A stretch of DNA of 64,000 bases, taken from assembly GCF_005222785.1 (NCBI RefSeq), contig NZ_STGH01000003.1, positions 62,001-126,000 on the forward strand, in the 5' to 3' direction. Made by a program: the position numbers and the translations under genes. A model generated the notes under the pieces. That model was not told the DNA's origin. It was given only the letters and a program-made list of their open reading frames with translations, and ran no database searches. Below are positions 11,430 to 27,209 of this stretch, piece by piece (the first letter of the stretch is position 1; each line of letters begins with the position of its first letter). This DNA is from Rhodobacter sp. SY28-1 (lineage in GTDB: Bacteria; Pseudomonadota; Alphaproteobacteria; Rhodobacterales; Rhodobacteraceae).

Positions 11430-11466
11430 CCCCAGTAAAACAAAGAAAGCCCTTGTTTTGCTGGGG
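11430..11466 (+). repeat. hairpin just downstream of tRNA-Val
   Basis: CCCCAGTAAAACAA and TTGTTTTGCTGGGG form a 14-bp stem with one G-T pair and a nine-base loop. It starts seven bases after the tRNA gene, inside the element. It may act as a replacement terminator for the tRNA, protect its 3' end, or be part of the attachment region. There is no good T run behind it. Confidence 0.55.
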
Positions 11467-11481
11467 TTATTACGTTCTGCT

Positions 11482-11502
11482 GTTACAAAATCCGTTACAA
11501 AA
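11482..11502 (+). repeat. direct repeats GTTACAAAA, possible integrase arm sites
   Basis: GTTACAAAA occurs at 11482-11490 and 11494-11502, 12 bases apart, just ahead of the integrase start. A third copy lies at 30560-30568, 32 bases before attR. Copies on both arms of the attachment site are what integrase arm-type sites would look like. Binding is inferred. Confidence 0.5.
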
Positions 11503-11512
11503 TGGGTCTGTG

Positions 11513-13078: not shown

Positions 13079-13116
13079 TACTATAACAATTCTCTTGCGG
13101 GCGGATTCCGCACTGT

Positions 13117-13147
13117 GGTATCCTGATACCGTAGTGAGTTAACGAGT
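13117..13147 (+). promoter_or_regulatory. shared element 1 ahead of the portal operon
   Basis: GGTATCCTGATACC (13117-13130) is a perfect inverted repeat. It is followed without a gap by a block that matches the one at 20752-20782: GATACCGTAG is identical, and the next 13 positions share nine bases and end in TAACGAGT. A TATAAC at 13082-13087 could be a -10 element. The two copies each precede a structural operon of the element, so a common regulator is inferred. Confidence 0.6.
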
Positions 13148-13152
13148 TCCGC

Positions 13153-14367
13153 ATGGGTATCATGACCAGCCTTGGCCGAATGTTCGGCCAAGGCACCCCT
13201 GAACAGAAAGCCTTTGGGCTGACCGACCCCGAGGCTCTTGCGCTGTTCGGAGTTCTTTCTTCCGCCAGCGGCCTTCCCGTCACCGCCGCCAGTGCAATGC
13301 GTGTCCCTGCCGTCAAGCGGGCCGTGTCGCTGATTGCAGAGTCGGTCGCCACCATCCCCTTCAAAACCTACGTCACCGAAACCCGCGAGACGGCACAGGA
13401 CCACCCGTCCTATTCCATCGTTCATGATTGGGCGAATGACTGGACCAGCGCCGAAACCCTGCGGGAACAGCTCACCGTTGATGCCCTTCTGACCGGCGAC
13501 GGCTACGCCCAGGTGGTGCGCAACGCCGAAGGCAAGGTGCTTGAACTGCACCGGATGGACCCGAGCGCGGTTCAGATGGAACGCAACGACTTCGGCGAAC
13601 CAACCTACCGCATCCGGTTGCAAGATGGTGGCGAAGCCATCCTTGCCTACAGTGACGTTCTGCACTTGCAGGGCATGGGTGGCGTGTCGCCGGTGACGAT
13701 GGCCCGAGAGGCTATCGGGCTGGCCCTTGCCGCCGAACAGCACCTGTCCAACTTCTTCAAGAACGGTGGCCGACCCTCGGGCGTGATCCTGCACCCGAAC
13801 AAGCTTGAAGCCGAGACCAGCAAGAAGCTGGCTGCAAGCTGGTTTGCCTCGCACGGTGGCGACAAGGCCGGATCAACCGCAATCCTTGATGAAGGGATGG
13901 ACTATAAGCAGATCGCTGCCCAGCTGGCGGATTCCGAGTTTTCAGAGGTTCGTCGGGAACAGGTCCGCGAGATTGCCCGCGCCTTCAACGTTCCGCCTGC
14001 CCTGCTTTACGAACTGTCGCGGGGCACATGGTCCAACTTTGAACAGTCGCACCGTGACTTCCTGACAGGCACCCTTCGCCCTTGGATCAGCCGCTGGCAG
14101 GCCGCCTATGCGCGGGTGCTGTTGACGCCCGAGGAACGCACCCGGTTCTACATCGAAGCAACGCCGGATGACATGCTGTCGGTGGAGTTCGCCGCCCGTG
14201 CGACCGCCTTCAGCCAATACGTCGCCATGCGGGCGCTTACCCCGAATGAGGTTCGGGCCGCGCTGAACCGCCCGCCGCTGCCCGGTGGCGACACCCTGCA
14301 AAACCCCTTCACGACCACCAGTGCAGCCGCCCCTGCACCTTCCGAGGATACACCTGAGAATGACTGA
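13153..14367 (+). CDS. phage portal protein (HK97 family)
   Basis: The 404-residue protein has the HK97-type portal signature: an N-terminal VPAVKRAVSLIAESVATIPF region, LLTGDGYAQVVRN, RPSGVILHPNKL, and the stretch with VRREQVREIARAFNVPPALLY. It ends in a Pro-rich tail. Portals form a dodecameric ring at one capsid vertex through which DNA is packaged. It is the first gene of the structural operon, following the integrase by 74 bases. It overlaps the next gene by eight bases. TAACGAGT lies five bases ahead of the ATG. Confidence 0.95.
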   Translation: MGIMTSLGRMFGQGTPEQKAFGLTDPEALALFGVLSSASGLPVTAASAMRVPAVKRAVSLIAESVATIPFKTYVTETRETAQDHPSYSIVHDWANDWTSAETLREQLTVDALLTGDGYAQVVRNAEGKVLELHRMDPSAVQMERNDFGEPTYRIRLQDGGEAILAYSDVLHLQGMGGVSPVTMAREAIGLALAAEQHLSNFFKNGGRPSGVILHPNKLEAETSKKLAASWFASHGGDKAGSTAILDEGMDYKQIAAQLADSEFSEVRREQVREIARAFNVPPALLYELSRGTWSNFEQSHRDFLTGTLRPWISRWQAAYARVLLTPEERTRFYIEATPDDMLSVEFAARATAFSQYVAMRALTPNEVRAALNRPPLPGGDTLQNPFTTTSAAAPAPSEDTPEND

Positions 14368-14689
14368 CCAGATCACGCACCGCGCCTTCTTCGGCGACGG
14401 TGAACACGCCTTCTGCCTGACTGATCCGATGCTTGCCGAACTCGAAAAGATCACCGGGCTTGGTGTGGGTGCCCTGTATCTTCAGCTTGTCGGCATGGCC
14501 TGTTCGGCCACTGTCTTGCGCGAGATCATCCGCCTTGGGCTGATCGGAGGCGGCACCTCGCCCGAGGATGCAATGCGCCTCTGTGATGCCTACGCCAGCA
14601 ATCGTCCCTTGGCCGAAACCTTCCCGCTGGCCTTTGACATCATGGAGGCCCGCTGGACTGGCTTGAAAGCCGACAAGGCTGCTGCATGA
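14360..14689 (+). CDS. GTA gp10-like tail assembly chaperone (Phage_TAC_11-like)
   Basis: The 109-residue protein begins MTDQITHRAFFGDGEHAF and contains ITGLGVGALY and IIRLGLIGGGTSPEDA, which match the small chaperone family found in gene transfer agents and related siphoviruses. There it binds the tape measure protein during tail assembly. It is out of place here, wedged between portal and protease with an eight-base overlap on the portal and an ATGA overlap on the next gene. No tail tube gene is found in the element, so its partner would be the tape measure at 24864-27209 or a helper phage protein. Family assignment is from memory of the sequence pattern. Confidence 0.65.
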   Translation: MTDQITHRAFFGDGEHAFCLTDPMLAELEKITGLGVGALYLQLVGMACSATVLREIIRLGLIGGGTSPEDAMRLCDAYASNRPLAETFPLAFDIMEARWTGLKADKAAA

Positions 14690-16191
14690 CCGATCGGCTG
14701 GAAATCAAGGCCGCCCTGACCGTCACCGATGCGGGCGAAGTCATTGGCACCGCCTGGCCCTTCGGTTCCCCTGACCGGGTGGGTGACGTGATCGAAAAGG
14801 GTGCCTTCACCGGCCCGGCCACGCTGCCCATGCTGTTCAGCCATGATCAGGCACAGGTCATCGGGGTTTGGGATGAAATTACCGAAGGCGAAGCTGGCCT
14901 GACCGTGAAGGGCCGTCTTCTGGTGGACGACGTGGAACGCGCCCGCGAGGTCCGCGCGATGGTCAAAGCCGGTGCTGTCTCGGGCCTGTCCATCGGCTTT
15001 GTCACCAAGGACGCGAAGCGCCACGCCAAGGGCCGCACGATCAGCGCCCTTGAACTGCATGAAATCAGCATTGTTGCGGTCCCGGCACATCCGGGGGCGC
15101 GGATCACCTCAATCAAGTCTGTAACGAGTGGAGTTCCCCAAGTGGAAATCGAAGACCCCAAGACCCCGGCGAATGCGCCGGAAATCGACACCAAGGCGTT
15201 CAACGCCGTTCTGTCCCGGCTGGACAAGCTGGAAGCCAAGACGGGCCGTCCCGGTGCCCCGGCCATTGTGCAGGGCGAAGACAAGGCAGAACGGAAGGCT
15301 TTCGTCACCTTCCTGCAAACCGGCCAGATCGATCAGAAGGCCTTGACCGTCGCGAACGATGCCCCGGCCTATGTGCTGGCCCCGGAAGAAGTCTCGGGTG
15401 AGTTAATCCGCAATCTGGTGGAGTTCAGCCCGATCCGGTCCATCGCCGATGTGCGCACCACCGCAAGCCACACTATCCTTCTGCCGAAGCGCACCGGGAT
15501 CACGAATGCAGTTTGGGTGGGTGAAACCGCTACCCGCACCGCCTCGGAACCGACCTTCGATCAGTCGCAGATCGAAGTGAAGGAACTTGCGACCTATGTG
15601 GACCTGTCCCTGCGGATGCTTGAAGACTCGGGCAACGTGGATTCCGAGGTCCGGCTTGCTCTGGCCGAAGACTTCGGCGCGAAGGAAGGCCTGGCCTTTG
15701 TGAACGGCAGCACCGCCGTTGAACCGACCGGGTTCATGGCCGCCGCAGGTATCGCGGAAACGAACAACGGCCACGCCACCAACCTTTCGGCGGATGCCCT
15801 GATCAACCTGTTCTATGCGATGCCCGCGACCTACCGGAACCGGGGCGCATGGGTCATGAACGGCACCACGCTTGCGACCGTTCGCAAGCTGAAAGACGGT
15901 CAGAACAACTACCTGTGGCAACCGTCCTTCCAAGCGGGCCAGCCGGAAACCATCCTCGGGCGTCCCGTGGTGGAAGTGCTCGACATGCCGAACGTGGCCG
16001 CCGCCGCGACCCCGATCATCTTCGGCGACTTCAAGGCCGGGTATCGCATCTATGACCGTGTGGCGCTGGACGTGCTGCCCGATCTTCTGACGCAACGCAC
16101 CTCGGGCCTGGCCCGCTTCCATGCCCGTCGCCGGGTGGGTGCTGGCGTGGTGCGGACTGACGTGTTCCGCAAGCTGAAGATGGCCGCCTGA
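14686..16191 (+). CDS. fused prohead protease - major capsid protein (HK97 type)
   Basis: The 501-residue protein joins two normally separate products. Residues 1-145 are an S78-type prohead protease, with the His in MLFSHDQ, the Ser in VSGLSIGF and the LHEISIVAVPAHPGARI end. Residues from about 155 form a scaffold-like delta segment followed from about 225 by an HK97-fold capsid (VRTTASHTILLPKRTG, then GFMAAAGIAE, and the C-terminal GYRIYDRVALDVL). At the joint lies TAACGAGT (15122-15129), then GGAG (15130-15133) and, eight bases on, an in-frame GTG at 15142. The capsid could therefore also be made alone by internal initiation, about 350 residues long. The fusion is seen; the internal start is inferred. 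Confidence 0.92.
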   Translation: MTDRLEIKAALTVTDAGEVIGTAWPFGSPDRVGDVIEKGAFTGPATLPMLFSHDQAQVIGVWDEITEGEAGLTVKGRLLVDDVERAREVRAMVKAGAVSGLSIGFVTKDAKRHAKGRTISALELHEISIVAVPAHPGARITSIKSVTSGVPQVEIEDPKTPANAPEIDTKAFNAVLSRLDKLEAKTGRPGAPAIVQGEDKAERKAFVTFLQTGQIDQKALTVANDAPAYVLAPEEVSGELIRNLVEFSPIRSIADVRTTASHTILLPKRTGITNAVWVGETATRTASEPTFDQSQIEVKELATYVDLSLRMLEDSGNVDSEVRLALAEDFGAKEGLAFVNGSTAVEPTGFMAAAGIAETNNGHATNLSADALINLFYAMPATYRNRGAWVMNGTTLATVRKLKDGQNNYLWQPSFQAGQPETILGRPVVEVLDMPNVAAAATPIIFGDFKAGYRIYDRVALDVLPDLLTQRTSGLARFHARRRVGAGVVRTDVFRKLKMAA

Positions 16192-16197
16192 TCGGCC

Positions 16198-16827
16198 ATG
16201 CCCGGCACCGTCCAGCCCTCGCCGGAAGTCCTGTTGTGTTGCGGAACTCATGCCGTGACCCTGCGGGCTTCCTTGCGGGCTGCGATGGCGCTGGAAAGCC
16301 TGCCGGGCGGTATCGCGGTGGTCTGGGAAGATACCGCCCGGCAGAAGCTGACTGCGCTACACGCCGTCATCCGGGCTTCTGCCACGGATAGGGCAGGGGC
16401 CGAGAGGCTTCTTGCCCATGCCGCCACTACCCCGATTGGGCAATTCGCCCACACCGCGCAAGCGGCCTGCCTGGCCCTGTTGTCCGGCTTTCTCAAAGCG
16501 GAGGATCAGGGCGAGGCAACCCCTTCCTCTACCGAACCGGCCAAACCCTTCCGGGACTACCTTGCGGACCTGTTCAGATACGGCACCGGCTGGCTTGGCT
16601 GGCCGCCGTCCGAAGTCTGGAATGCCGGTATAGGTGAGTTGGAAGCCGCCTTCCTCGCCCATGTAGATCGCTTGGTGAAGATGACGCCCGGTGCCAGTGC
16701 GAACGGCACGGCGACGGGTGATGGCGACTACACCGCTGACCGGCTTCGGCAGATCGAAGATCAGGGCTTTGACCCTGCCTTTGATCTTGAAGCGCTGCGG
16801 GCCTTGAAGTCCCGCCACGGCCTATGA
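16198..16827 (+). CDS. hypothetical phage protein with tail-chaperone-like C-terminal part
   Basis: The 209-residue protein is not recognised as a whole. The segment around residues 120-160 (FRDYLADLF, then WLGWPPSEVWNAGIGELEAAF) resembles the short tail assembly chaperones of the Phage_TAC_6/GTA rcc01693 type, which have a GLGL-P-x-x-FW-x-x-TP-x-EL pattern. The N-terminal 110 residues are Ala-rich helices. It follows the capsid gene by six bases and precedes the HNH gene, so it belongs to the structural operon. A neck or completion role is also possible. Confidence 0.5.
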   Translation: MPGTVQPSPEVLLCCGTHAVTLRASLRAAMALESLPGGIAVVWEDTARQKLTALHAVIRASATDRAGAERLLAHAATTPIGQFAHTAQAACLALLSGFLKAEDQGEATPSSTEPAKPFRDYLADLFRYGTGWLGWPPSEVWNAGIGELEAAFLAHVDRLVKMTPGASANGTATGDGDYTADRLRQIEDQGFDPAFDLEALRALKSRHGL

Positions 16828-16837
16828 GGCCCTGAGC

Positions 16838-17185
16838 GTGCCCAAACCGCCCCGCCTCTGCACCTGCGGGCAGATCGTGCCCGCTGGCTCCGTCTGCGCT
16901 TGCCAGAGGGACGCCATACGCGTCCGAGGCCGTCGCCACGATGCCAAAAGGCCCAACAGCCGCCAGCGCGGCTATACGCGCCAGTGGGAGGCCCTGCGGG
17001 CTGAGTTCATCCGCCTGCACCCGCTTTGTGCCTTCTGCGGTTCCACCAGCGAACACGTTGACCACATCAAGGCGCACAAGGGGAACCCGGCGCTGTTCTG
17101 GAACTGGAACAACCTGCAAGCCCTCTGCGAACACTGTCACAACAGCGTCAAGCAGAGGCAGGAACGGGCTATCAATGTCGGCTAG
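16838..17185 (+). CDS. HNH endonuclease, packaging-associated
   Basis: The 115-residue protein has a compact HNH nuclease fold: CAFCG and CEHCH as zinc-binding pairs, the catalytic EHVDHIKAH and the Asn in WNWNNLQALC. A first Cys cluster (CTCGQIVPAGSVCAC) lies at the N-terminus. HNH proteins of this kind work with the large terminase to cut DNA during packaging in HK97-type phages and in capsid-forming satellites. The start is GTG. The gene overlaps the next one by 11 bases. Confidence 0.88.
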   Translation: MPKPPRLCTCGQIVPAGSVCACQRDAIRVRGRRHDAKRPNSRQRGYTRQWEALRAEFIRLHPLCAFCGSTSEHVDHIKAHKGNPALFWNWNNLQALCEHCHNSVKQRQERAINVG

Positions 17186-17510
17186 GGGAGCCGGTCATAA
17201 TCAGTTGCATATCGCCAACCCCGAGCGTGCGCTGTGGCAGGCTGTGCTTCTACAGGCAATAGAGGAAGCGTTGCACGGGCCAAAGAGCGTATCCACATTG
17301 CACCGCGCCCGTGAGTGGCAAGAAGCCCGCGACTACATCACCACCCCCAGCGAAGACCTTGAGATGGTCTGTTCACTGGCAGGGGTGGAGATGGAGGCAG
17401 TGGTGGAGCGGATGAAACTAGAGACTAAGAGCCGCCACCGAAACGCCAACTTTCATGGCCTCGGCACGCTGCGCGAGCGGAATCTTGTCCAACGAAAGGA
17501 CTCGTCGTAA
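17175..17510 (+). CDS. hypothetical phage accessory protein (W..AR.W...DF..VC.LAG type)
   Basis: The 111-residue protein contains LWQAVLLQAIEEAL and, further on, AREWQEARDYITTPSEDLEMVC and SLAGVEMEAVVERM. Small proteins with this tryptophan, short helix and VCxLAG pattern are frequent in alphaproteobacterial prophages next to HNH or terminase genes; their function is not known. The ATG at 17175 lies inside the end of the HNH gene, so the two are translationally coupled. A decayed second copy lies at 19024-19341, on the other side of the first cargo gene. Confidence 0.7.
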   Translation: MSARGAGHNQLHIANPERALWQAVLLQAIEEALHGPKSVSTLHRAREWQEARDYITTPSEDLEMVCSLAGVEMEAVVERMKLETKSRHRNANFHGLGTLRERNLVQRKDSS

Positions 17511-17537
17511 GCTGCTTCGATAATTTTGGAGGGCACC

Positions 17538-18947
17538 TTGACTAAGAGAATTGCCGCTGTTGGCGTCGAACTTGCTTCTTCATCCGTTGAGCACATAGAG
17601 CTACTATCTCGCAAGTCACTTCTTGATTGGGACATTGTTATCTTTCGACCAAATGTAAATGGCTTGGAAGCCGATTCCCACTACAACGGCCGGCGAAGCT
17701 TCGGCGCGCACTACTCGACTCAGATCAAAGACGCTCAAGCTCATTGGCGTCAGCAAATTGAAGCGGCGGTGAAATCAGGAACAACAGTCTTCATATTCCT
17801 ATGCAGCCCAGAGCAGTTCTGGATTGAAACGGGGAAGAAGCAGTATAGTGGCACTGGAAAAAGTGCTCGCGCGACGACTATTGTGACCGATTTAACCAAC
17901 TACGATCTTGCGCCAGTCCCGCCGGGGTGGAATGCGGCAGAAGGTTCGGAGATGGTGTTGGATCCTATTTTCCGAGAGATACTCGGATCATATTGGGATC
18001 GATTTGGAAAGTCATCGGTCTACCATGTGTCCTGGAGTCCCAATCAAGGTAACCGCTGTATCGGCACGAGAGCGGGTGGTCGCACTACGGGCATTTGCGT
18101 GAAGGCGGATGAGCACGAAGGTGGGCTGGTCTTTCTTCCTGATCTGAATTTTGACGATGACAGCTTTGCTGATCTAAATGACGATGAAGACGACTTAGAG
18201 TGGACGAAGGAAGGCAAAATCTTCGCTGAGTCCTTGGTATCTGAGCTTGTAGAAGTCACGCGGCGAATAAATTCAACGCTTGAACGAAGCGCAGCGCCAT
18301 CCTGGGTTTCGGATGCAGCATATGTGCTTCCCGCTGAAAAGGAGATTAGGAATACTGTAGTGAAGATCGAAGGTGAGATTGATCGCCTGAATCGGGAAAG
18401 ATCGGAGAAGCTATCCGAACTTGACGAGGTTGAGCGGATGAAGGGTCTTCTATATGAATCTGGGAAGCCCTTGGAACATGCGATACTGCTAGCTTTGCGG
18501 GTGCTGGGTTTCAGCGCCGAGAACTTTACAGATGAAACTATGGAGCTCGATGCGGTATTTGCTTCTGAGGAAGGAAGGCTGATAGGTGAAGCAGAGGGTA
18601 AGGATAATAAGCAGGTAAACATAACAAAGCTCCGACAGCTAAGTGTCAATATCGAGGAAGACTTTGAGCGCGAAGAAATAACAGTTCGTGCAAAGGGCGT
18701 GCTCTTTGGAAACGCCTTCAGGTTCACACCTCCGGATGAGCGAGAACCTTGCTTTACAGATAAGTGCATTACGTCAGCACAGGTTACTTCTATTGCACTG
18801 ATTGATACGGTCTCACTCTTTCGGGTAGCATCATATTGTCTCAGGCATAACGATGAGAGTGTTGCAAAGGCGTTTCGTCAGAAGCTTTTTTCCGAGAGTG
18901 GAGTTATTCAGGTATTCGGTCTTCTTTCTGCTGAGGCAGTTAAGTAG
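17538..18947 (+). CDS. cargo protein with PD-(D/E)XK nuclease-like C-terminal domain
   Basis: The 469-residue protein has no family I can name. The N-terminal 150 residues look like an alpha/beta Rossmann- or amidotransferase-like domain (LLDWDIVIFRP, then a strand in SGTTVFIFLCSP). A coiled segment around residues 275-300 follows. The end has LEHAILLALRVLGF, then Asp338 in ELDAVF and EAEGK at 351-355, which is the D-x(n)-E-x-K spacing of PD-(D/E)XK nucleases. The start is TTG at 17538, because GGAGGG lies four bases ahead. The gene is clearly more AT-rich than its surroundings and lies in a break of the structural operons, as cargo genes do. A defence nuclease is the best guess. Confidence 0.6.
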   Translation: MTKRIAAVGVELASSSVEHIELLSRKSLLDWDIVIFRPNVNGLEADSHYNGRRSFGAHYSTQIKDAQAHWRQQIEAAVKSGTTVFIFLCSPEQFWIETGKKQYSGTGKSARATTIVTDLTNYDLAPVPPGWNAAEGSEMVLDPIFREILGSYWDRFGKSSVYHVSWSPNQGNRCIGTRAGGRTTGICVKADEHEGGLVFLPDLNFDDDSFADLNDDEDDLEWTKEGKIFAESLVSELVEVTRRINSTLERSAAPSWVSDAAYVLPAEKEIRNTVVKIEGEIDRLNRERSEKLSELDEVERMKGLLYESGKPLEHAILLALRVLGFSAENFTDETMELDAVFASEEGRLIGEAEGKDNKQVNITKLRQLSVNIEEDFEREEITVRAKGVLFGNAFRFTPPDEREPCFTDKCITSAQVTSIALIDTVSLFRVASYCLRHNDESVAKAFRQKLFSESGVIQVFGLLSAEAVK

Positions 18948-19023
18948 CCGCTATGGAGAGTGTGCCTGTTCGGTCAGCCCTGGCAACCAGCGCAGGAGGT
19001 CCGCCAGTTGAAGTTTCTGTGCG

Positions 19024-19341
19024 ATGCGTCCGTGCGAACCGACCTCTGCGTTCTGCGGTGCCATCAGCTTGAGCCGGTCAATTGCATGGGCCGAAGAACT
19101 GCGCATGGCTGCACCCCCCATTCGGGAGTGGCCGGAAGCCCGCGGCTACATCAACGCACCACGAATATGCCTAGCCAAGGTCTGTGCGATGGCGGAGATA
19201 GAGATTTGGGTGGTGTTAGAGCAGAAGCGAGTTAGGATCGCAACGATACACGCAGCTAATGACGTGCTGGAATGCCCGCGCAAAGAGGTCGCTAGACAAC
19301 ATCATTGGTCTGGACAATCGATCCCGAACACGATCAACTGA
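19024..19341 (+). pseudogene. decayed copy of the 17175-17510 gene
   Basis: The frame contains REWPEARGYINAP followed by VCAMAEIEIWVVLEQKR. This lines up with REWQEARDYITTP and VCSLAGVEMEAVVERMK of the intact gene, and the stretch before it (SLSRSIAWAEEL) loosely matches its start. The rest does not match, there is no good ribosome binding site, and the segment differs too much for a recent copy. It marks a duplication or a recombination scar around the cargo gene at 17538-18947. The whole gap 18948-19372 holds nothing else I can support. Confidence 0.55.
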
Positions 19342-19372
19342 GCCTGTCAAAAGGACTAATCGGAGAACAACC

Positions 19373-20212
19373 TTGTTTAATCTTCTTGTTCAATCTGGTG
19401 GATGGCCAGCGCATCAGAGTGACTTCGAATCGTCTCGTATATTTGAATACACAGATGACCATATAAGGGACCTCTTTACCGTCGGTGGACGGCCGAATTT
19501 TCGCGATCTAATGGCGTTGCCAGCTCTCTTTATGCCTGAACAGAATTCGGGTGATAACATGGCACGTGTAGGAACGATTACGCGTGTAACGAGTTCAGGG
19601 GCGCGAAGCGTGCGCATTGAATATTCCTACGATCCGAAAATGCCTGCCGTTAGTGTCGATTGGATAGGGTCGATAGCGTCAGATCTTGGAATGCATGATT
19701 GGGAGTTTAGTCGCACCCACTGGGCTGTGAAAGAGCCCGATCTTTTCCGGGCAATAATAACAGCTATGCAGCCACAACAGAACCAAGCCATTGTATTTAA
19801 TGTTCCGGACAAAAGCGCTATTCAAAGAGATCAGATTTCTGTAATGATGCCATTTGATCGCGGATTTGATGGAACATATGAAGCAATACGCAGGGCTGGC
19901 GCGACCGTTCGTATGCGAGTGAATCGTGCTGACAACATTTGGGAGCATCATGCAATCATTCAGGACATTGTTTCTTTAATTGCCAGGTCGCAGATTATTG
20001 TTGCTGACTGCACGGGCATGAATCCAAATGTCTTTTATGAGATAGGGATTGCTCATGCAATTGGACGTGAGGTTATTTTAATCACTCAGAACATGGATCA
20101 TATTCCGTTTGACCTAAGGCACCTTCGAGCGCTGACTTATCACCCCAACGGCGAAGGTTTGGATACTTTGCAGATTAAGCTGACGGATAGAATTCAAACT
20201 CTTCTGCGCTAA
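19373..20212 (+). CDS. cargo protein with TIR/nucleoside-deoxyribosyltransferase-like domain
   Basis: The 279-residue protein has a beta-rich N-terminal part (residues 60-115), a conserved-looking EFSRTHWAVKEPDLFRAI segment, and a C-terminal alpha/beta domain from about residue 154. That domain reads ISVMMPFDRGFDGTYEAIRR, then IIVADCTGMNPNVFYEIG and AHAIGREVILITQ. This is the pattern of the nucleoside 2-deoxyribosyltransferase/TIR-like superfamily, where the Glu after NPNVFYE is the expected catalytic residue. Such domains cleave N-glycosidic bonds and often act as immune effectors. The start TTG at 19373 has GGAGA six bases ahead. Low GC and the setting point to acquired cargo, probably paired with the gene at 17538-18947. 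Confidence 0.65.
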   Translation: MFNLLVQSGGWPAHQSDFESSRIFEYTDDHIRDLFTVGGRPNFRDLMALPALFMPEQNSGDNMARVGTITRVTSSGARSVRIEYSYDPKMPAVSVDWIGSIASDLGMHDWEFSRTHWAVKEPDLFRAIITAMQPQQNQAIVFNVPDKSAIQRDQISVMMPFDRGFDGTYEAIRRAGATVRMRVNRADNIWEHHAIIQDIVSLIARSQIIVADCTGMNPNVFYEIGIAHAIGREVILITQNMDHIPFDLRHLRALTYHPNGEGLDTLQIKLTDRIQTLLR

Positions 20213-20256
20213 TAGGGAAGGTCAAATCTAAATGTGGACTTGCGGGCATTTGCGGT

Positions 20257-20287
20257 GAGGTGCCCTCGAAAGGGCACCTCTCTTTTT
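20257..20287 (+). terminator. strong intrinsic terminator after the cargo genes
   Basis: GAGGTGCCCT and AGGGCACCTC form a perfect 10-bp stem around a CGAA loop, followed by TCTTTTT. It ends transcription coming from the TIR-like gene. It also touches the stop codon of the convergent small gene at 20286-20447. Confidence 0.92.
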
Positions 20288-20447
20288 ATGACGAGAACCA
20301 CATCTTGAAGGCTGCCCAGAGAAGCGCTGGAATCAGGCCAAGCGCAATCGCCCAAAAACTGGGTTCTTGCACCACTTTTTCAAGAATCACGAGTCCTGAT
20401 TTAGTGTCAATAATGATGCGTGTTTTCGTCTCTTTCTTTAAATTCAT
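20286..20447 (-). CDS. small single-span membrane protein (53 aa)
   Basis: The 53-codon frame opens with AAAGGA about 10 bases before the ATG. It encodes a polar start (MNLKKETKTRIIID) and one hydrophobic helix (FWAIALGLIPALLWAAFKMWF) near the C-terminus. It reads toward the cargo genes and ends at their terminator hairpin. It is AT-rich like the cargo. It could be a regulator, a membrane partner of the defence-like pair, or a lysis-type peptide; nothing in the sequence decides between these. No homologue is recognised. Confidence 0.6.
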   Translation of the reverse strand: MNLKKETKTRIIIDTKSGLVILEKVVQEPSFWAIALGLIPALLWAAFKMWFSS

Positions 20448-20751
20448 AGCATAGAATTCCTTTACTAGAAGGTCGTTCGAAGAATTCTCTGCTGTTCATT
20501 TGGCTAGAGCTTCTCGTCACGGTATCCTTTCGATTGTTGAATGAATGCTCAGTCCAGGCTCCGCGCTGTTCTCATTGGATGAGCGGGGTTATCATGAGAA
20601 CCCAGCCAATGTTGAGGCTAGTTGCCTAGCCGACACCTGACAAGGATGTGCATCGTGCAGTGCCTGGGGTGGCCGGGAACTTCATGCCCTTTAGGGAACC
20701 GGCGCGGGGAGCTTCGCGCAAGACTGTTATAATATAACTTTTCTAGGTTGG
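20448..20751. other. AT-richer gap with inverted repeats, no gene
   Basis: I see no supported protein gene in this stretch. It contains GTTCTCAT (20568-20575) with its inverted partner ATGAGAAC (20594-20601), and GGCTAG/CTAGCC around TTGC (20616-20631). A consensus -10 hexamer TATAAT lies at 20728-20733. The structures could belong to a small RNA or a leader, or be the promoter region of the connector operon. Confidence 0.4.
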
Positions 20752-20782
20752 GGTAATATGATACCGTAGCAGGGTAACGAGT
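20752..20782 (+). promoter_or_regulatory. shared element 2 ahead of the connector-terminase operon
   Basis: GGTAATATGATACC (20752-20765) has the same GGTA-N6-TACC frame as 13117-13130, and GATACCGTAG is identical in both. The copies stay aligned without gaps up to TAACGAGT. A second TAACGAGT at 20792-20799 directly touches the ATG of the next gene. The pairing with the portal operon suggests one late regulator for both. Confidence 0.6.
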
Positions 20783-20799
20783 GCCTGTGAGTAACGAGT

Positions 20800-21171
20800 A
20801 TGCCCCTGTCCCTCGCCCTGATCCGGGCGCACCTGAATCTTGAACGTATCCCGACCGAAGACCCGCTGCTTACCCACTACGGCAACGTGGCCGCTGCATG
20901 GGTTCAGGCCTACACCGCCCAACCCTTCGACCACGGCAACGCCCTCATGGTGCAGGCCGCGCTTCTCATGGTAGCGCATCAGTATGAAAGCCGCGAGGCC
21001 GTCACCTTTGGCAGTGCCTATCAGCTTCCCTTCGGTGTGCATGAACTGCTTTCGCCCCTGAAGAACCGGGTGACGGGCCACCGGCAAGACCTTCCCGCCG
21101 AACCGCCTCTGCCCCCGCCAGCGCTGGAGCCTGATCCGCCCGCCCCTGACCCTGATGCGGACCCCGTGTGA
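20800..21171 (+). CDS. head-tail connector (gp6-like)
   Basis: The 123-residue protein matches gp6-type connectors, which form a ring below the portal. It starts MPLSLALIRAHLNLE and contains WVQAYTAQPF, ALLMVAHQYESREAV and LPFGVHELLSPLK, then ends in a Pro-rich tail. It opens the second structural operon, and each of the next three genes overlaps its predecessor by a few bases. TAACGAGT touches the start codon. Confidence 0.82.
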   Translation: MPLSLALIRAHLNLERIPTEDPLLTHYGNVAAAWVQAYTAQPFDHGNALMVQAALLMVAHQYESREAVTFGSAYQLPFGVHELLSPLKNRVTGHRQDLPAEPPLPPPALEPDPPAPDPDADPV

Positions 21172-21629
21172 TGGGCAAGCTGGTGACAGGTTCCGAGGCG
21201 CTTGCGAGCAAGCTGGCCGCTGTTCCCACCGAAGTGCTGCAAGCCCTTCGCCCGGCTCTCACAAAGTCGGTGCATGAGATCGCAGCCGACGCGCGGGCGC
21301 TTGCTGCGAGTTCCCGGCGCACGGGTGCGCTGGTGGAGTCCATCGAAGCGACTTCACCCGGCGAGACTACCCCGCCGTTTGCCACGGGTGGCGGCAGGCT
21401 GACTGCCGGGCCGAACCAAGCCTTTGTGACGGCGGGCGATACCGATGCACGGCATGGGCATCTGGTGGAGTTCGGCACGGAAGAACGCCACCACCAGGAC
21501 GGCACTAGCACGGGCACCATGCCCGCCGAACCCTTCTTGCTGCCCGCGTGGCGATTGAACAGAGCCCGTGCCGAACGCCGGATCAAGAAGGCTATCAGCG
21601 ACGCCGCGAAGAAGGCGGTGGCAGGATGA
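21171..21629 (+). CDS. HK97 gp10-like neck/tail completion protein
   Basis: The 152-residue protein has the basic helical start and the GHLVEFGTEERHHQ followed by PAEPFLLPAWR motif of the HK97 gp10-like family. These proteins sit between head and tail. The ATG shares its A with the stop of the previous gene (TGATG). A GTG three bases upstream is a less likely start. Confidence 0.82.
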   Translation: MGKLVTGSEALASKLAAVPTEVLQALRPALTKSVHEIAADARALAASSRRTGALVESIEATSPGETTPPFATGGGRLTAGPNQAFVTAGDTDARHGHLVEFGTEERHHQDGTSTGTMPAEPFLLPAWRLNRARAERRIKKAISDAAKKAVAG

Positions 21630-22102
21630 ACGATCCGACCGTTGCCCTGCAAATGCTGATCCGGGACCGCCTGGCGGAACACCCGAAAATTGAGGAGCGT
21701 ATCAGCCCCTACAACATTCGTGTTGGCCCTATCGGACCCCACCACATGCCCGCGATTGTGCTTAGCCCGGCACGGGTTCGCGTTCTTGGGCGGGCTTCGG
21801 GCGGTCAGATCGTGGCCGAGGTGCGCGTGTTCCTTCACCTCTGGACGCCGGAAGACGCTTCAACGCTGCCCGATGGTCAGTATTCGTCTTGGCTTCTGAA
21901 GAATGAAGGCGGCTCTGCCACGGCGCAGATCATCGCCAATGCGATGCTGTCCGCACTGATGGACGCGCCCCGCGCATCCGACTTCCAGATTGACGAATGG
22001 GACCGTCCTGAACTGGTTTGGAACCGCGACCCTGATCCGGCGCAGCCCTTCATTCATGGAACGGTGGCCTTGCGCGCGGTCCTTCGGTGGAGGGCCGACT
22101 AA
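21626..22102 (+). CDS. DUF3168-like tail completion protein
   Basis: The 158-residue protein starts MNDPTVALQMLIRDRLAEHP and contains a GQIVAEVRVFLHLWT strand and an IANAMLSALMD helix. This layout resembles DUF3168 tail completion or tail terminator proteins. The start ATGA overlaps the previous stop. Order and size support a neck role. Such a protein would normally cap a tail tube, but no tube gene is present in the element. Confidence 0.62.
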   Translation: MNDPTVALQMLIRDRLAEHPKIEERISPYNIRVGPIGPHHMPAIVLSPARVRVLGRASGGQIVAEVRVFLHLWTPEDASTLPDGQYSSWLLKNEGGSATAQIIANAMLSALMDAPRASDFQIDEWDRPELVWNRDPDPAQPFIHGTVALRAVLRWRAD

Positions 22103-22413
22103 TGCAGGCTGGCAAGCTTCAGAACCGGATCGAGTTGCAGCGCTTGGAGGAATCCTTCGGCTTGGATCGATCAGTTCGGCAGAGTTGGAGAACCTACGCG
22201 ACCGGGAAGGCCGAACTTCGGCAGGCCGGTGCTTCGGAGTTCCTGACCACCTTCGGCGATGGCGTGTCGAATAATGCGGTGTTCCTGATCCGGTGGATTC
22301 CGGGCGTGTCGGTAACCGACCGGATCATGCACGGCGGCAAGGCGTGGAACATCGTCGCGGTTGCCGAGATCGGCCGCAGGAAGGGCTTGGAACTGCGGGC
22401 GGTGGCGTCGTGA
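22102..22413 (+). CDS. phage head closure / head-tail adaptor protein
   Basis: The 103-residue protein begins MQAGKLQNRIELQR, the typical opening of head-tail adaptor (SPP1 gp16/HK97 gp7-like) proteins. It has the short beta-rich body with NAVFLIRWIPGVSVTDRI and a final GRRKGLELRAV strand. It closes the neck after packaging. It starts inside the TAA of the previous gene. Confidence 0.82.
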   Translation: MQAGKLQNRIELQRLEESFGLDRSVRQSWRTYATGKAELRQAGASEFLTTFGDGVSNNAVFLIRWIPGVSVTDRIMHGGKAWNIVAVAEIGRRKGLELRAVAS

Positions 22414-22415
22414 AC

Positions 22416-22805
22416 CTATTCGTAGAACATCCATCGGTCGCGCTCTTCGCCGTTGTAAGTGACCATGGTCCCGCTTTGCTTGTCATACGTGCAAAGGACA
22501 CCATCCCATTCCTGCCGTTTCATCTCGGCTTTCAATTCCTCGCTGGTTTCCTCAGTAGGAACTATCTCAAAAACAAGTTGACCGTGCTTTTTCCACGATC
22601 TTGCAAGCGCGAGTTCAAGTCCTTCGTATTTGCCCGTCTTAACTTTCTCAGTCAGCCAATCAAGGCAGCTCGATCCATACACTTCTCGCTCTTGGTCAGT
22701 GGTCTTGTCCGAAATGGCGGCCTGATGCCGCTGGTGGTAGACCCAAGCTTGGTATCCCGTGGCGAGGTTAGTGACGACAAGAAGGGCGACAATAGAGCGG
22801 CTCAT
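22416..22805 (-). CDS. hypothetical membrane-anchored protein, antisense to the structural operon
   Basis: The 129-residue protein has an N-terminal signal anchor (MSRSIVALLVVTNLATGYQAWVY) and a charged, presumably periplasmic, body with two Cys residues (SSCLDWL, VLCTYD). It is not recognised. It lies on the opposite strand between the head closure and terminase genes, its stop two bases from the former's stop, and is more AT-rich than they are. This is the position of a moron, a gene expressed independently in the lysogen. Superinfection exclusion is one possible role. Confidence 0.6.
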   Translation of the reverse strand: MSRSIVALLVVTNLATGYQAWVYHQRHQAAISDKTTDQEREVYGSSCLDWLTEKVKTGKYEGLELALARSWKKHGQLVFEIVPTEETSEELKAEMKRQEWDGVLCTYDKQSGTMVTYNGEERDRWMFYE

Positions 22806-22852
22806 AGATCGGTTTCCAAGTGCTATTGCCCCAACCTAGCCGGGTGGCTGGC

Positions 22853-23245
22853 ATGAGCAAGCACCTTCGCGGGGTGAAGCCCAAGGTCGCAGCCGATCAG
22901 GAACCGCTTGCCCGCGTCCCCAAGGCCCCGGCCTACTTCAGCACCTACGCCCTGGCCGAATGGAAGCGGGTCCTGCCGGTCCTGGTGGCCCGGCGGGTGA
23001 TCTGCGCCGCCGATCTGGCACAAGTGGAAACCTACTGCCTTATGAATGGCTTGGTGCGACAAGTTGAGACAGAACGTCAACTGTCTGGCGGGGTGATCGA
23101 CCCCAAGCTGTTCAGTGTTCAGAACCGGGCAGCACAAACCGCCCGCCAGATCGCCGCCACCCTCGGGCTTGATCCGGTCAGCCGGGCACGGCTTGGCAGC
23201 GCTGCGCCGGAAGACGACGATGACAACCCCTTGGCGGTGGCATGA
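22853..23245 (+). CDS. terS: terminase small subunit (P27-like)
   Basis: The 130-residue protein matches P27-type small terminases: an N-terminal basic segment, a PKAPAYFSTYALAEWKRVLPVL helix, then DLAQVETYCLMNGL, and a C-terminal part with AAQTARQIAATLGLDPVSRARL. It recognises the packaging site and loads DNA onto the large subunit. The ATG at 22853 follows a short leader. The stop overlaps the terL start (ATGA). Confidence 0.85.
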   Translation: MSKHLRGVKPKVAADQEPLARVPKAPAYFSTYALAEWKRVLPVLVARRVICAADLAQVETYCLMNGLVRQVETERQLSGGVIDPKLFSVQNRAAQTARQIAATLGLDPVSRARLGSAAPEDDDDNPLAVA

Positions 23246-24852
23246 CGACCGCCTTCCCGGCTTGGATATATGACGGCACCCCCATTCCCGACCCTCTCGG
23301 GCACGGGGAACGGGCCGTCACCTTCTTGCGCCGTCTTCGGCACCCGAACAGCGATGCACCGGGCCGGGCCTTCCAACTTCACGAATGGCAGGAACGGATC
23401 GTCCGGCGCATCTACGGCCCGAGGAACGCGGACGGTAGCCGGATCGTCAAGACCGTGTTGCTGTTGCTTCCGCGCGGGAACCGCAAGACCAGCCTGGCCG
23501 CTGCGCTGGCGCTGTTGCACCTGTTCGGCCCGGAAAGCCGTCCCGCTGGTCAGGTGCTGTTTGCTGCCTGTGACCGGGAACAGGCGTCCATCGGTTTCAA
23601 GGAAGCCGCGAACATCATCCGGGAAGATCGTCGCCTGTTGAACGCGGTGACGATCCGCGATGCCTTCAACAGCAAAAAGCAGATCACGTTCGGGAAGAAG
23701 GCTTCCACCCTGACCGCCCTTGCTTCGGATGGTGGCGCAGCCCACGGCCTGACCCCTTCCTTCACCCTGATCGATGAAATCCATGCCTGGCGGGGCCGTG
23801 ACCTGTGGGAAGCAATCAAGAGCGGTCAGGCCAAGACCGATGATACCCTCATGGTGATAGCCACCACGGCAGGGCGCGGGGCCGAAGGACTGGCCGCCGA
23901 TCAGTTCAACTACGCGGTGCGGGTGGCGAAGGGCGAGGTGGTGAACCCCGAGTTCCTGCCGGTGCTGTTTATGGCCGAACCGGATGACGACTGGCAGGAT
24001 GAAGCGGTATGGCACCGGGTGAACCCCGGTCTTGCACATGGCTTCCCGTCGCTGTCCGGCCTGCGGGCGCTTGCGAAAGAGGCCGAGGGCAACCCTGCCG
24101 AACTTGCCAGCTTCAAGCAGTTCAACCTGAACATCTGGCAGGCCAACAGCCGTGACCCGCTGTTTGATCTGGCGACCTATGACGCCCGCTGCCTTGAAGA
24201 CGATGAAGCCGACCTTGAACAGCTTCCGGCCTACATCGGGGTGGATATGTCTGTCTCTGGCGACCTCACCGCCGTCTCAGTCGCGTTCCGGCATGACGAT
24301 GGGCAGATCACACTTCGCAGCACTGTCTTTGTGCCCGACGATGCCTTGCGCGAGAGGTCCAGCCGCGACGGCGCACCTTACCAGCGATGGGCGACTGACG
24401 GGCTGATCCGGCTCTGCCCTGGCCCGATCATCGATAACGACATGGTTGAAGATCATGTGCGCAATCTCTGCGCCAGCTACGATGTGCAGGAAGTGGCCTT
24501 TGACCCGCACCTGGCCCGCGTGGTCATGCAGCACTTGCACGATGAAGGCTTGCCTGTGTTCGCCTTCCCGCAAAGGCCCCTGACTATGGGCGTCGCGGCT
24601 GGTGATCTTGAAAGGATCGTCACCGGGCGGCTGATCCGGCATGATGGTGATCCGGTGCTTCGGCACCATTTCGAGAACGTGGTGACAAGCCGCAACCCGA
24701 CAACCGGGCTGGTGCGGATGCACAAGGCCACCACGGCCAGCCGAATAGACGCTGCCGTGGCCTCTGCAATGGCTGTCTCTCGGGCCGTCACCGCCAACAA
24801 CACCAAGTCCCGATACGATGACCCGGAAGTGCCGGGCCTTATGATCCTGTAG
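23242..24852 (+). CDS. terL: terminase large subunit
   Basis: The 536-residue packaging motor has an N-terminal ATPase with the Walker A variant LLPRGNRKTS, Walker B FTLIDEIH, and the coupling motif around VIATTAGR. The C-terminal RNase H-like nuclease begins at IGVDMSVSGDLTAVS, and further acidic residues lie in VAFDPHL and at ASRIDAAVA. The length is normal, so the element can probably package its own DNA. The gene is 11 bases ahead of the tape measure gene. Confidence 0.95.
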   Translation: MTTAFPAWIYDGTPIPDPLGHGERAVTFLRRLRHPNSDAPGRAFQLHEWQERIVRRIYGPRNADGSRIVKTVLLLLPRGNRKTSLAAALALLHLFGPESRPAGQVLFAACDREQASIGFKEAANIIREDRRLLNAVTIRDAFNSKKQITFGKKASTLTALASDGGAAHGLTPSFTLIDEIHAWRGRDLWEAIKSGQAKTDDTLMVIATTAGRGAEGLAADQFNYAVRVAKGEVVNPEFLPVLFMAEPDDDWQDEAVWHRVNPGLAHGFPSLSGLRALAKEAEGNPAELASFKQFNLNIWQANSRDPLFDLATYDARCLEDDEADLEQLPAYIGVDMSVSGDLTAVSVAFRHDDGQITLRSTVFVPDDALRERSSRDGAPYQRWATDGLIRLCPGPIIDNDMVEDHVRNLCASYDVQEVAFDPHLARVVMQHLHDEGLPVFAFPQRPLTMGVAAGDLERIVTGRLIRHDGDPVLRHHFENVVTSRNPTTGLVRMHKATTASRIDAAVASAMAVSRAVTANNTKSRYDDPEVPGLMIL

Positions 24853-24863
24853 GAGTAACGAGT

Positions 24864-27209
24864 ATGGCCGAAGTTCAGGGCCTGATTATCAATCTTGAAG
24901 CCCGCACTGCCCAGCTTGAACGCGGGTTGAAGCGCGCAAACGAGGCGCAGCGCAAGGCCGCGCAACAGATGGAACGGCGGGCGAAGACCTCTGCCGATCA
25001 GATCGCAAAGAGCTATGAAAGCGCGGGCGGGCGGATCAGCGATGCCTTCAAGACCATCGCCATGCCGAAGCTTGCCGGGCTGGCCGGAACGGTCGCGGGC
25101 ATCGGTATCGCGGGCGGTGTGGCCGCCGTGCGCCAGACGGTGCGAGGCATCGCGGAAATCGGCGATGCTGCCAAGCGGGCTGGGATGCAGGCAGAGGCAT
25201 TTCAGGAATGGGGCTATGTCGCCGATCAGAACCGGATCAGCGTTGACGCCTTGACCGATGGCTTCAAGGAACTGTCCCTGAGGGCAGATGAGTTCATCGT
25301 GACCGGTTCGGGAAGCGCAGCCGAAGCCTTCAAGCGCCTCGGGTTCAGTGCCTCGGAACTGAAGGGCAAGCTGCAAGACCCTTCGGCCCTTATGGTGGAA
25401 CTGGTGAAGCGGATGGAGGGCTTGGACAAAGCCGCGCAAATCCGTATCGCCGATGAACTGTTCGGCGGGACCGGCGGGGAACAATTCGTCCAGCTACTCG
25501 ACAAGGGCGCTGCCGGTATCTCTGATCAGATCGCCCGCGCGCGGGATCTTGGTCTGGTCATGGATAGCGACATGATCGCCAAGGCCGCCGAACTGGATTC
25601 CAAATTCCGCGAAGTTGAAACCCGGCTGCAATCGATGTGGCGCACGGGCGTTGTGGAGGCCGGTTACTTCTTCGGTTTGATCGAACGTGAGAAGGAAAAG
25701 CTACAGTTTGACCCGGTGGATACTGCCCGGCTCTTTGGGCAGGACACTTCCGACGCGCTGGTCGATCTGCCCGAGGTTCCGCAAGAGGCTCTTGAACAGG
25801 TTGAAAGCCTGAAGATCGAATACCGCGACCTTGCAACCGAAGCGCAGAACATCATCCCGGCGCTGGCAAACGCCTCTAGCATGATGACTGCACTTGGTCG
25901 GGAAGCCGAAGCGGTCATGCTGCGCGACCTGACCGCTGAATTTGCCGAGGTGGCCGGTAGCTTCGCGGATGGCACCATCACCGGCGAAGAGTTCCGCGCC
26001 AAGCTGGAGGCAATCTCCGGCGAAGTGGTCAGGACCATTTCCGAGATGGAAGAAATGGACCAGGTGCGCCTGAGCGAAGTCACCGGATCAGTTCAGAACC
26101 TCTTGGCTTGGATTCAGGAGCTTCCGGCGGCTGCGGCTGCGGCCCGGAACGAAATCGCTTCGCTTGCGATGATGGACACTGGCACCCCGCTTTCGGGCAC
26201 TGGAGCAGACCTGTTGCCGCCGTCGCCGGGCACCATCACCACCAGCCCGAGGCCGAAGGCAGCACCGGCCATGCTTGGCGAACCGGAAGTGCCCGGCAAG
26301 GGTAGTGCAGGTGGTAGCGGTGGCGGTGCTGGTGGCCGTTCGCAGGATGAGTTTGCCCGCGCCCTTGAGTCCCTGAACCAAGAGCGCCTGGCCCTTGAAG
26401 CCGAAGCCGCTTCGCTGATCGTCGCAACGCAAGCCGGGCTGGAATACGCGGAAGCCTTGGAGTTCGCCCGAGTGCGGGCTGACCTGCTTGTGGCAGCGCA
26501 GCGCGACGGGAAGGCGATTACCCCTGAACTTACCGCCGAAATCGACCGGCTGGCACAGGCACATATCCAGGCAGGCAATGCAGCCAAGCAGGCCGCTGAC
26601 GATCTGGACCGGGTGAAGGAACGCGGGAAGAAGGGTGCCGAGGCCCTGACTGACGTGTTCACCAGCGTCCTGACAGGCGCAAAATCTGCCGAGGAAGCGG
26701 TGGGTGCGTTGCTCTTGGAGATCGCCAAGATTCAGTTTCAGAAGGCGATGATGGGTCTGTTCAGTGGGAGCGGGGTAGGTGGGTTCATCGGCGGCCTGCT
26801 TGGGTTCGCGGATGGTGGGTTCACCGGCACGGGCGGGAAGTATGAACCGGCTGGTGTAGTCCATCGCGGGGAGTATGTGTTCAGTGCCGAGACGGTGAAG
26901 CGCCTTGGCGCGGGCAACCTTGAACGACTCCATAGAAGCGCCAAGAAGGGCTATGCGACGGGCGGGCTGGTGGATGCACCCGAGAGGGTCGCAAGGGCGT
27001 CTGGTGACTCACTGCGGGCCTCTGGTGAGTCATCCGGCCCGAGTGTCACCATCAACGCCCCGGTGACGGTCAACGCCAATGGCGGGACACCGGAACAGAA
27101 CGCCGATCTGGCCGCGAGGATGGCGGAACAAACCGAACGGATGTTCCGGGGGCTGGTGGCGGAAGAACTGGTGAAGCAGATGCGTCCAGGCGGGATGCTT
27201 CGCCGTTAG
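24864..27209 (+). CDS. phage tail tape measure protein
   Basis: The 781-residue protein starts with a coiled LEARTAQLERGLKRANEAQRKA segment. A hydrophobic stretch follows (LAGLAGTVAGIGIAGGVAAV), then a long helical part with Ala-rich coils. Its end is the usual GFADGGFTG and VVHRGEYVFSAETVKRLG of tape measure proteins. These set tail length and pass into the host envelope during DNA entry. Its length would fit a tail of roughly 110-120 nm by the known rule of about 1.5 angstrom per residue. No tail tube, sheath or baseplate gene follows, which is unusual. TAACGAGT touches the ATG, with AGGAG ahead. Confidence 0.85.
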   Translation: MAEVQGLIINLEARTAQLERGLKRANEAQRKAAQQMERRAKTSADQIAKSYESAGGRISDAFKTIAMPKLAGLAGTVAGIGIAGGVAAVRQTVRGIAEIGDAAKRAGMQAEAFQEWGYVADQNRISVDALTDGFKELSLRADEFIVTGSGSAAEAFKRLGFSASELKGKLQDPSALMVELVKRMEGLDKAAQIRIADELFGGTGGEQFVQLLDKGAAGISDQIARARDLGLVMDSDMIAKAAELDSKFREVETRLQSMWRTGVVEAGYFFGLIEREKEKLQFDPVDTARLFGQDTSDALVDLPEVPQEALEQVESLKIEYRDLATEAQNIIPALANASSMMTALGREAEAVMLRDLTAEFAEVAGSFADGTITGEEFRAKLEAISGEVVRTISEMEEMDQVRLSEVTGSVQNLLAWIQELPAAAAAARNEIASLAMMDTGTPLSGTGADLLPPSPGTITTSPRPKAAPAMLGEPEVPGKGSAGGSGGGAGGRSQDEFARALESLNQERLALEAEAASLIVATQAGLEYAEALEFARVRADLLVAAQRDGKAITPELTAEIDRLAQAHIQAGNAAKQAADDLDRVKERGKKGAEALTDVFTSVLTGAKSAEEAVGALLLEIAKIQFQKAMMGLFSGSGVGGFIGGLLGFADGGFTGTGGKYEPAGVVHRGEYVFSAETVKRLGAGNLERLHRSAKKGYATGGLVDAPERVARASGDSLRASGESSGPSVTINAPVTVNANGGTPEQNADLAARMAEQTERMFRGLVAEELVKQMRPGGMLRR

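Follow-up and report, generated by a model that had tools for sequence, protein, structure and literature searches.

Two AT-rich candidate anti-phage genes in a cargo slot of a phage-like element of Rhodobacter sp. SY28-1

The locus

Among the head genes of an integrated phage-like element in Rhodobacter sp. SY28-1 lie two neighbouring AT-rich genes, here called P1 and P2. The window in which they were analysed is a stretch of 64,000 nucleotides (contig NZ_STGH01000003.1, 62,001 to 126,000), and positions are counted from its first letter. P1 (17538-18947, plus strand) encodes a protein of 469 residues and P2 (19373-20212, plus strand) one of 279. The initial annotation, made from the sequence alone, described them as open reading frames (ORFs) that begin with TTG and are preceded by GGAG-type ribosome sites, and this is what is found. 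The starts are credible because homologues begin at the equivalent residue: those of P1 start at the same position, and the LFNLLV that opens P2 aligns with MFNLLV in its relatives. The strong difference in base composition is also confirmed. The G + C content (GC) is 0.488 for P1 and 0.461 for P2, with third-codon-position values (GC3) of 0.475 and 0.419, versus 0.606-0.653 and 0.682-0.766 in six genes of the element. The reading that we consider probable is that P1 and P2 are two separately acquired single-gene anti-phage candidates in a cargo hotspot, P2 being an abortive-infection protein of the nucleoside 2-deoxyribosyltransferase (NDT) type and P1 a free-standing nuclease.

The element extends from 11393 to 30631 (~19.2 kb) and is bounded by an exact direct repeat of 32 bp, one copy of which (11393-11424) is the 3' end of a tRNA-Val gene, the other lying at 30600-30631. 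Inspection by eye suggests an integrase-like gene (11453-13078), a portal, a terminase and a tape-measure-like protein. PHROGs families identify the capsid (phrog_10, E 4.9e-74), an HNH protein (phrog_144) and a head-tail adaptor (phrog_40). The view that the two genes are cargo inside a phage-like element is supported. For the five genes flanking P1 and P2, PHROGs returned the capsid, the HNH protein, the adaptor and one unknown phage family. The fifth, gene X (17178-17510, plus strand), is a small phage gene 3' of the HNH gene and has no PHROGs match. No partner such as a signal synthase or a reverse transcriptase was recognised among these five genes, in a scan that included no search aimed at retron RNA or reverse transcriptase.

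The P2 protein

P2 consists of an N-terminal domain (residues 1-~140) and a C-terminal NDT-fold domain (~150-279) that contains D198, D212, Y222 and E223. The C-terminal half matches the PADLOC model 'Effector TIR' (PDLC00733, residues 187-261, E 4.9e-11), phrog_3634 (residues 182-275) and, at 21.9 bits and so under the gathering cut-off of 28.8, the Pfam NDT family PF05014 (residues 187-243); none of the Pfam TIR models matches P2 at E<=1. In an AlphaFold2 model (mean predicted local distance difference score, pLDDT, 89.4; predicted template-modelling score, pTM, 0.51) the best Foldseek match is the NDT of T. brucei (E 7.2e-5), closely followed by DNPH1 and TIR domains; 11 matches fall at E <= 0.001 (NDTs, DNPH1, one TIR and one SPARTA). 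The NPNVFYE motif from which an NDT or TIR relationship was first suggested lies within the half that matches NDT-class profiles.

D198, D212, Y222 and E223 are all kept in 32/32 distinct P2-type proteins, and E223 is found in 122 of 124 collected NDT domains, the other two having gaps there. This conservation is partly biased because one viral search used the residue patterns N[PA]NVFYE and RAD[ND][IF]W[EID][HND]; the plasmid and genome matches are pattern-free. Aligned by eye, E223 and D198 correspond to E104 and D80 of DNPH1. D80 is named in PDB titles, and E104 we take to be the counterpart of E223.

Of everything in the two candidates, the N-terminal domain of P2 holds the greatest interest. 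It has no credible Pfam match in 15 members (best E 0.027) and no PDB match by sequence (best E 1.6), and its similarity to phrog_4962, a family of unknown function, is marginal (residues 18-154, E 0.002). A search of plasmids gave proteins annotated as TIR, FRG or nucleotide-binding that match in this part alone. A profile search among the collected loci gave 49 distinct carriers, which end in an NDT domain (32), FRG (4), CAP12-type TIR (3), TIR_2 of the ALSFPGE type (3), SEFIR/TIR (3) or another TIR (1), with three too short to tell. Pfam confirmed 14/14 of the non-NDT carriers. One of these, L103 (collected loci carry L numbers), was 'other' in the script's pattern and is counted as SEFIR/TIR on Pfam evidence, and a shortened plasmid gene (L104) was merged with L097. 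NDT is over-represented in the carrier total, since several of the searches were seeded with P2. A genome search with the N-terminal domain only is less biased, with 10/15 of the query rows of the NDT type; it found the domain in 12/398 genomes, joined to NDT in five (source genome included), to a TIR-class domain in three and to FRG in one, with three short. With a TIR-type copy of the domain as query, 319 plasmid records give a match; they are mostly enterobacterial, and 259 are predicted to be conjugative. In a set of 60 of the 319 matches, 34 are annotated as FRG and 10 as TIR, and the others are hypothetical, nucleotide-binding or unannotated. The domains joined to the P2-type N-terminus are predicted NAD+ or nucleotide cleavers, a role that we assume for SEFIR and CAP12-TIR.

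This arrangement resembles that of the AbiJ-NTDs, N-terminal domains which, according to passages of a 2013 survey of HEPN domains, are swapped among toxic and immune enzyme domains, TIR and nucleoside 2-deoxyribosyltransferases among them (PMC3710099). The survey proposes there that the AbiJ-NTDs detect components of the virus and keep the toxin in check, and that the target of the NDT domains is the bases of DNA and not NAD+. As in the fusions these passages describe, the P2 N-terminal domain is exchanged among several enzymes (NDT, FRG, CAP12-TIR, TIR_2 and SEFIR/TIR); unlike in them, it has been seen in this sample only with predicted NAD+ or nucleotide cleavers, and not with HEPN or nuclease domains. 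Membership of P2 in that family was considered and rejected, since neither P2 nor any of 15 N-terminal domains matches AbiJ_NTD1-5.

The C-terminal half has known relatives. TIR and DrHyd versions are described as NADases, the DrHyd versions as effectors in immune systems, and Frg as a NADase that might be one (passages of PMC9503650), and Swarozyc (DUF4062) as a sensor with a TIR-like NADase (a passage of PMC13174449). P2 shares the fold class and the catalytic-type Glu with the NDT/DrHyd superfamily and the TIR-like NADases treated there, and differs from the superfamily in falling short of the Pfam NDT threshold. These passages of the two papers do not mention an N-terminal domain of the P2 type.

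Matches to P2 occur in 30/394 genomes of the family, and cover at least 270/279 residues in three. From 17 plasmid records in which coverage of P2 reaches 80% or more, six loci were inspected. In three of them the P2-type gene adjoins a restriction-modification system (L095), AbiE (L094) or a DUF1778/GNAT pair (L098), the last presumably of toxin-antitoxin type. In 4/32 distinct cases the P2-type gene forms a tandem with another gene that encodes an NDT domain: L002 (791-1561 and 1754-2614), L095 (4890-5621, after 4001-4840), L098 (4001-4819 and 4998-5831) and L142 (1427-2167 and 2250-3110). The neighbour is an AbiJ_NTD5+NDT protein, directly beside the P2-type gene, in L002 and L095, and a near-duplicate P2-type gene in L098. 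The recurring partner of P2, if there is any, is thus a second NDT-domain gene and not P1. A chimera was also seen in L109 (1483-2541, minus strand), with a start that by eye resembles a primase-type zinc finger and an NDT domain at its end.

The P1 protein

P1 has an alpha/beta N-terminal part (~1-245), a long helix (265-305) and a C-terminal domain of the PD-(D/E)XK type (~305-437) with the motif residues E313, D338 and E353-G-K355. In an alignment of 73 rows, E313, D338 and E351 are conserved in 73/73, and E353 and K355 in 71/73. The conservation of residues 349-356 is overstated because they lay in a search pattern; no pattern included E313 or D338. The AlphaFold2 model built from the 73 rows has a mean pLDDT of 93.8 and a pTM of 0.61. 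Foldseek matches it with probability 1.00 to EndoMS, AF1548, 2vld and FokI (E 0.005-0.013) and, lower, to HindIII (E 0.04) and Hjc (E 0.15), all of them at probabilities of 0.9-1.0. They are placed on the C-terminal domain by the motif, because Foldseek gave no aligned ranges. Taken together, the Foldseek probabilities and the motif assign the modelled C-terminal domain to the PD-(D/E)XK fold. The nuclease-like nature first suggested for P1 is upheld, and for both proteins the fold, the conserved catalytic-type residues and the kinship to classes of immune effectors agree with what had been proposed.

The N-terminal part is, on the model, a Rossmann-like candidate sensor. At the head of the Foldseek list stand VC1899 (1xmx) and a CRISPR nuclease activated by cyclic oligoadenylate (6sce), with Cdn1 (9u49) lower; the first two superpose badly on P1 (root mean square deviation 38.6 and 34.5). 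VC1899 is presumably kin to the effectors in which a CARF domain is joined to a nuclease. Like Card1 and Can2, which are of that type, P1 combines in a single chain an alpha/beta sensor-like part and a nuclease of the PD-(D/E)XK type; it differs from them in that its profile matches no PDB chain by sequence and in the poor superposition, in a comparison that included no search for a CRISPR context. Among the viral models the best Foldseek match is an unnamed protein of 210 residues (E 8.8e-4). A GIFT (GATase-like) match in one member (E 0.0099) and low-probability GATase-like Foldseek matches are leads only. Assignment of P1 to a known family was rejected, as scans of the Pfam, PADLOC, PHROGs and NCBIfam models, and of PDB sequences, found no match to it. 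In the 73 relatives, family-model matches are scattered, each in at most 2/73 members.

A viral search with the P1 sequence alone found nothing; with a three-row alignment (A3) the search yielded relatives in 10 viral loci and at least 73 genome loci. The records bearing them include Rhodobacter, Agrobacterium, Pseudomonas, Sulfurimonas, Planctomycetes, Acidobacteriaceae, Patescibacteria, Methanosarcina and a nanohaloarchaeal metagenome-assembled genome; these taxa are taken from record titles, where binning errors in assembled genomes are possible, and the phylum names are our own assignment. A 38% homologue is present in seven Enterobacter plasmid records, and in both of those inspected it adjoins an integrase. 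P1 is matched in 4/394 genomes of the family, one match being a fragment that lies at the end of its contig, and in 2/385 genomes of the class sample, one of which is the source genome itself. Neighbours of P1 are variable: with ORFs picked by length, no neighbour cluster occurs in more than 5/90 P1 loci. One of the few conserved neighbourhoods is that of L056 and L084 (~4000-11100; Malaciobacter and Sulfurimonas, epsilon-type), where the homologue stands between related large genes. The homologue in L008 (1459-2967, minus strand), which came from a protein search and not from the pattern, is possibly an inactive or repurposed version of P1.

Co-occurrence of P1 and P2

The initial annotation inferred that the two proteins act together, and would see this refuted if homologues never occurred together. 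The collected loci do not support joint action. Among the matches listed there are 91 P1 loci, three of which are this window. The flanks of the other 88 (1.5-6 kb, often cut short by the contig; some of the loci are redundant, such as L004/L005 and L007/L022) contain neither a P2-type protein with both domains nor one that has just the P2 N-terminal domain, and no NDT-domain protein of the kind seen in P2. Conversely, none of the loci of the 31 other distinct P2-type proteins holds P1. Within this sample, then, homologues do not occur together.

P1 and full-length P2 are found together only in the source genome among the 394 of the family; in one other (G126) a P1 fragment and an NDT-domain match lie on different contigs. 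A P2 search of the genomes behind 36/73 of the P1 genome loci gave six matches, none full-length. The genome behind L021 has a P2-type N-terminal domain with a TIR end, outside the flank around its P1.

The spacer between P1 and P2 is 425 bp long and contains a decayed partial copy of gene X (19082-19205, plus strand; source 17271-17392), identical in 89/129 columns (blastn, E 2e-7). In one frame it weakly matches the X region of locus L216 (E 0.002). This remnant, which separates the two genes, is best explained by separate acquisitions or by local duplication.

Downstream of P2 is a terminator-like hairpin (20257-20280, plus strand; 10 pairs followed by TCTTTTT), and an ORF of 53 residues with one hydrophobic stretch, P3 (20286-20447, minus strand), converges on it. 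Both parts of what had been described as a membrane peptide converging on the terminator of the two genes do exist; as to the terminator, such sites are no commoner in the region than chance would have it (4, versus 4.2 in shuffled sequences) and the fold of 96 nt at the hairpin is unexceptional (z -1.42). Promoter-like sites are likewise near chance (5 versus 3.5). P3 has no family in the model libraries scanned and no match among collected ORFs of at least 60 residues, and may or may not be a gene.

The cargo slot

P1 and P2 occupy an interval whose left border is gene X and whose right border is a stretch immediately 5' of the adaptor gene (20663-20747). The DNA of this stretch is matched in 18 of 80 related elements and could be a recombination or regulatory site. 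The related elements are the best 80 of 239 viral contigs obtained with the capsid as query, and in 61 of them (L214-L274) the interval from HNH/X to the adaptor, or to a gp10-like or head-closure-like gene, was tested. Both borders were found in 50/61, the interval including the adaptor where the right border is another gene.

The six closest relatives among the best 80 of 239 are L214-L219 (capsid 80-84%). In five of them (L214-L217 and L219) the slot holds distinct AT-rich cargo, with a GC of 0.44-0.54 versus 0.57-0.63 for the whole locus, and its main gene lies on the other strand, which is not the case for P1 and P2. L214 has a HEPN-like protein of 485 residues (E 7.5e-4, under the Pfam cut-off), L215 a protein of 259 residues, L216 two proteins of 188 and 434 residues, L217 an NYN protein of 289 residues (E 1e-9) and L219 a DUF6236 protein of 351 residues (E 1.9e-16). 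The same five loci show DNA similarity to the middle of gene X. PADLOC matched only two of these six proteins, and weakly. As other AT-rich genes fill it in 5/6 of the closest relatives, the slot from HNH/X to the head-tail adaptor is a hotspot for cargo, and its borders are conserved. In most of L220-L273 it contains smaller ORFs with a GC near that of the element. A clean empty slot was not seen in L214-L219; L218 has 139 bp from HNH to gp10, with X and the adaptor undetected. In L246 (63 bp) and L260 (10 bp), both only distantly related, the adaptor comes straight after HNH, with no X detected. Hotspots with varied defence candidates are described for phages of the P2 group and satellites of the P4 group (PMC9122126). 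The present slot differs from those in its element family, in its position and in carrying candidate defence cargo.

As for the element itself, its gene order is common to the capsid relatives, of which 27 of 80 contigs are 15-19 kb long. By eye it has few or no tail genes, and a tape-measure-like gene (24864-27209, 781 residues) points to some tail function. The element may be a capsid-encoding satellite. A comparison with the capsid-forming satellites that resemble phage-inducible chromosomal islands, which have an integrase, att sites, a capsid and packaging genes of their own and no tail genes, covered the att repeat, capsid, HNH protein and adaptor, all identified here, and the integrase, portal, terminase and tape-measure-like genes, recognised by eye. 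A 129-residue ORF with an N-terminal hydrophobic stretch (22805-22416, minus strand), between the head-closure-like and terminase-like genes, is a possible second cargo gene.

Interpretation

P1 and P2 are regarded as independent candidates and not as one system because their relatives do not co-occur, because a remnant of X lies between them, because the neighbours of P1 vary and because related elements carry different cargo in the same slot. P2 would be autoinhibited until infection, its N-terminal ~140 residues sensing a phage cue or restraining the enzyme. The NDT domain would then cleave an N-glycosidic linkage, NAD+ or a related nucleotide being the likeliest substrate and E223 the putative catalytic residue, and this cleavage of NAD+ (or of another target) would stop phage growth. 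Bases in DNA, as in the older proposal for such fusions, would be an alternative target. In P1 the alpha/beta part would sense and the PD-(D/E)XK domain cut nucleic acid, the protein acting alone. The likeliest benefit would be to the element, which could in this way exclude competing phages.

Several observations weigh against this reading. In searches of defence databases, which the initial annotation called for, P1 matches no PADLOC model, and P2 reaches 'Effector TIR' through its C-terminal domain only. In 50,697 phage records there is one weak partial match to P1 and none to P2 at 80% coverage, the 36 partial ones covering at most 45% of P2. Foldseek finds nothing in the PDB for P1 at E <= 0.001 (best 2.2e-3). 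The L008 homologue lacks the E/D/E-x-K residues, the rest of its chain being kept, and D198 of P2 is present in only 67/124 of the collected NDT domains. PADLOC models matched number 183 among 131 P1 neighbours versus 42 among 115 controls, a count of models and not of proteins; both lists are headed by the broad models mads and AriA, and the neighbours come from genome loci, the controls from 13 stretches of P1-bearing genomes. Finally, the flanks in which co-occurrence was sought measure 1.5-6 kb and often end with the contig, many contigs being short.

The alternative that survives best, unlikely as we judge it, is that P1 and P2 work for the element and are directed at its host or at a helper phage, by exclusion, interference or toxin-like maintenance. 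That they lie amid head genes of a mobile element fits this, as do the homologues on plasmids and in viral contigs, the plasmid ones near genes of toxin-antitoxin type; the effector classes and the swapping of domains are those seen in immune proteins. The two accounts also overlap, since a prophage that blocks phages protects its host as well. A metabolic or neutral role, with P2 a nucleoside salvage enzyme and P1 a nuclease of the repair type, seems improbable. It would explain why genuine NDTs and DNPH1 are among the structural matches of P2, and EndoMS and Hjc among those of P1. The N-terminal domain of P2 is also fused to TIR, SEFIR, CAP12-TIR and FRG, for which we know of no role in salvage, and the mobile, patchy spread of both genes in the family genomes speaks against it too.

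Least credible of all is a single two-gene system with the logic of Thoeris or CBASS, P2 making or destroying a nucleotide signal that P1 would sense before cleaving DNA: the genes are adjacent, on the same strand and alike in AT-rich composition, the Foldseek list of P1 is headed by VC1899 and 6sce, and domains of the DrHyd/TIR class are described as able to make ADP-ribose derivatives (a passage of PMC9503650), against which stand the 0/88 other P1 loci with P2, the spacer with its decayed phage gene and the bad superposition of both structures; the two-gene system was rejected for want of co-occurrence in the collected loci.

Significance

With two independent candidates as the preferred reading, a wider and more tentative proposal may be made. 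The N-terminal domain of P2 may be an undescribed mobile sensor module shared across distinct classes of NAD+-cleaving effectors (NDT, TIR_2, SEFIR, CAP12-type TIR and FRG/ART), and P1 may found a separate family of sensor-nucleases that ranges from Pseudomonadota to Patescibacteria and archaea; as part of the same proposal, one trigger mechanism might serve a family of immune proteins, each encoded by a single gene, that occur both on phages and on conjugative plasmids of Gram-negative bacteria. No description of P1 or of the P2 N-terminal domain was found in the titles and abstract openings of the open-licence papers listed, which is weak evidence of absence.

If the N-terminal domain of P2 senses phage, then one trigger, found once, would be readable through several effectors of the NADase type, some of which are on conjugative plasmids of enterobacteria. 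P1 represents a broadly spread and unannotated family of the nuclease type with a sensor-like part. The main result is a corrective one: adjacency in a cargo slot is not the same as a two-gene system.

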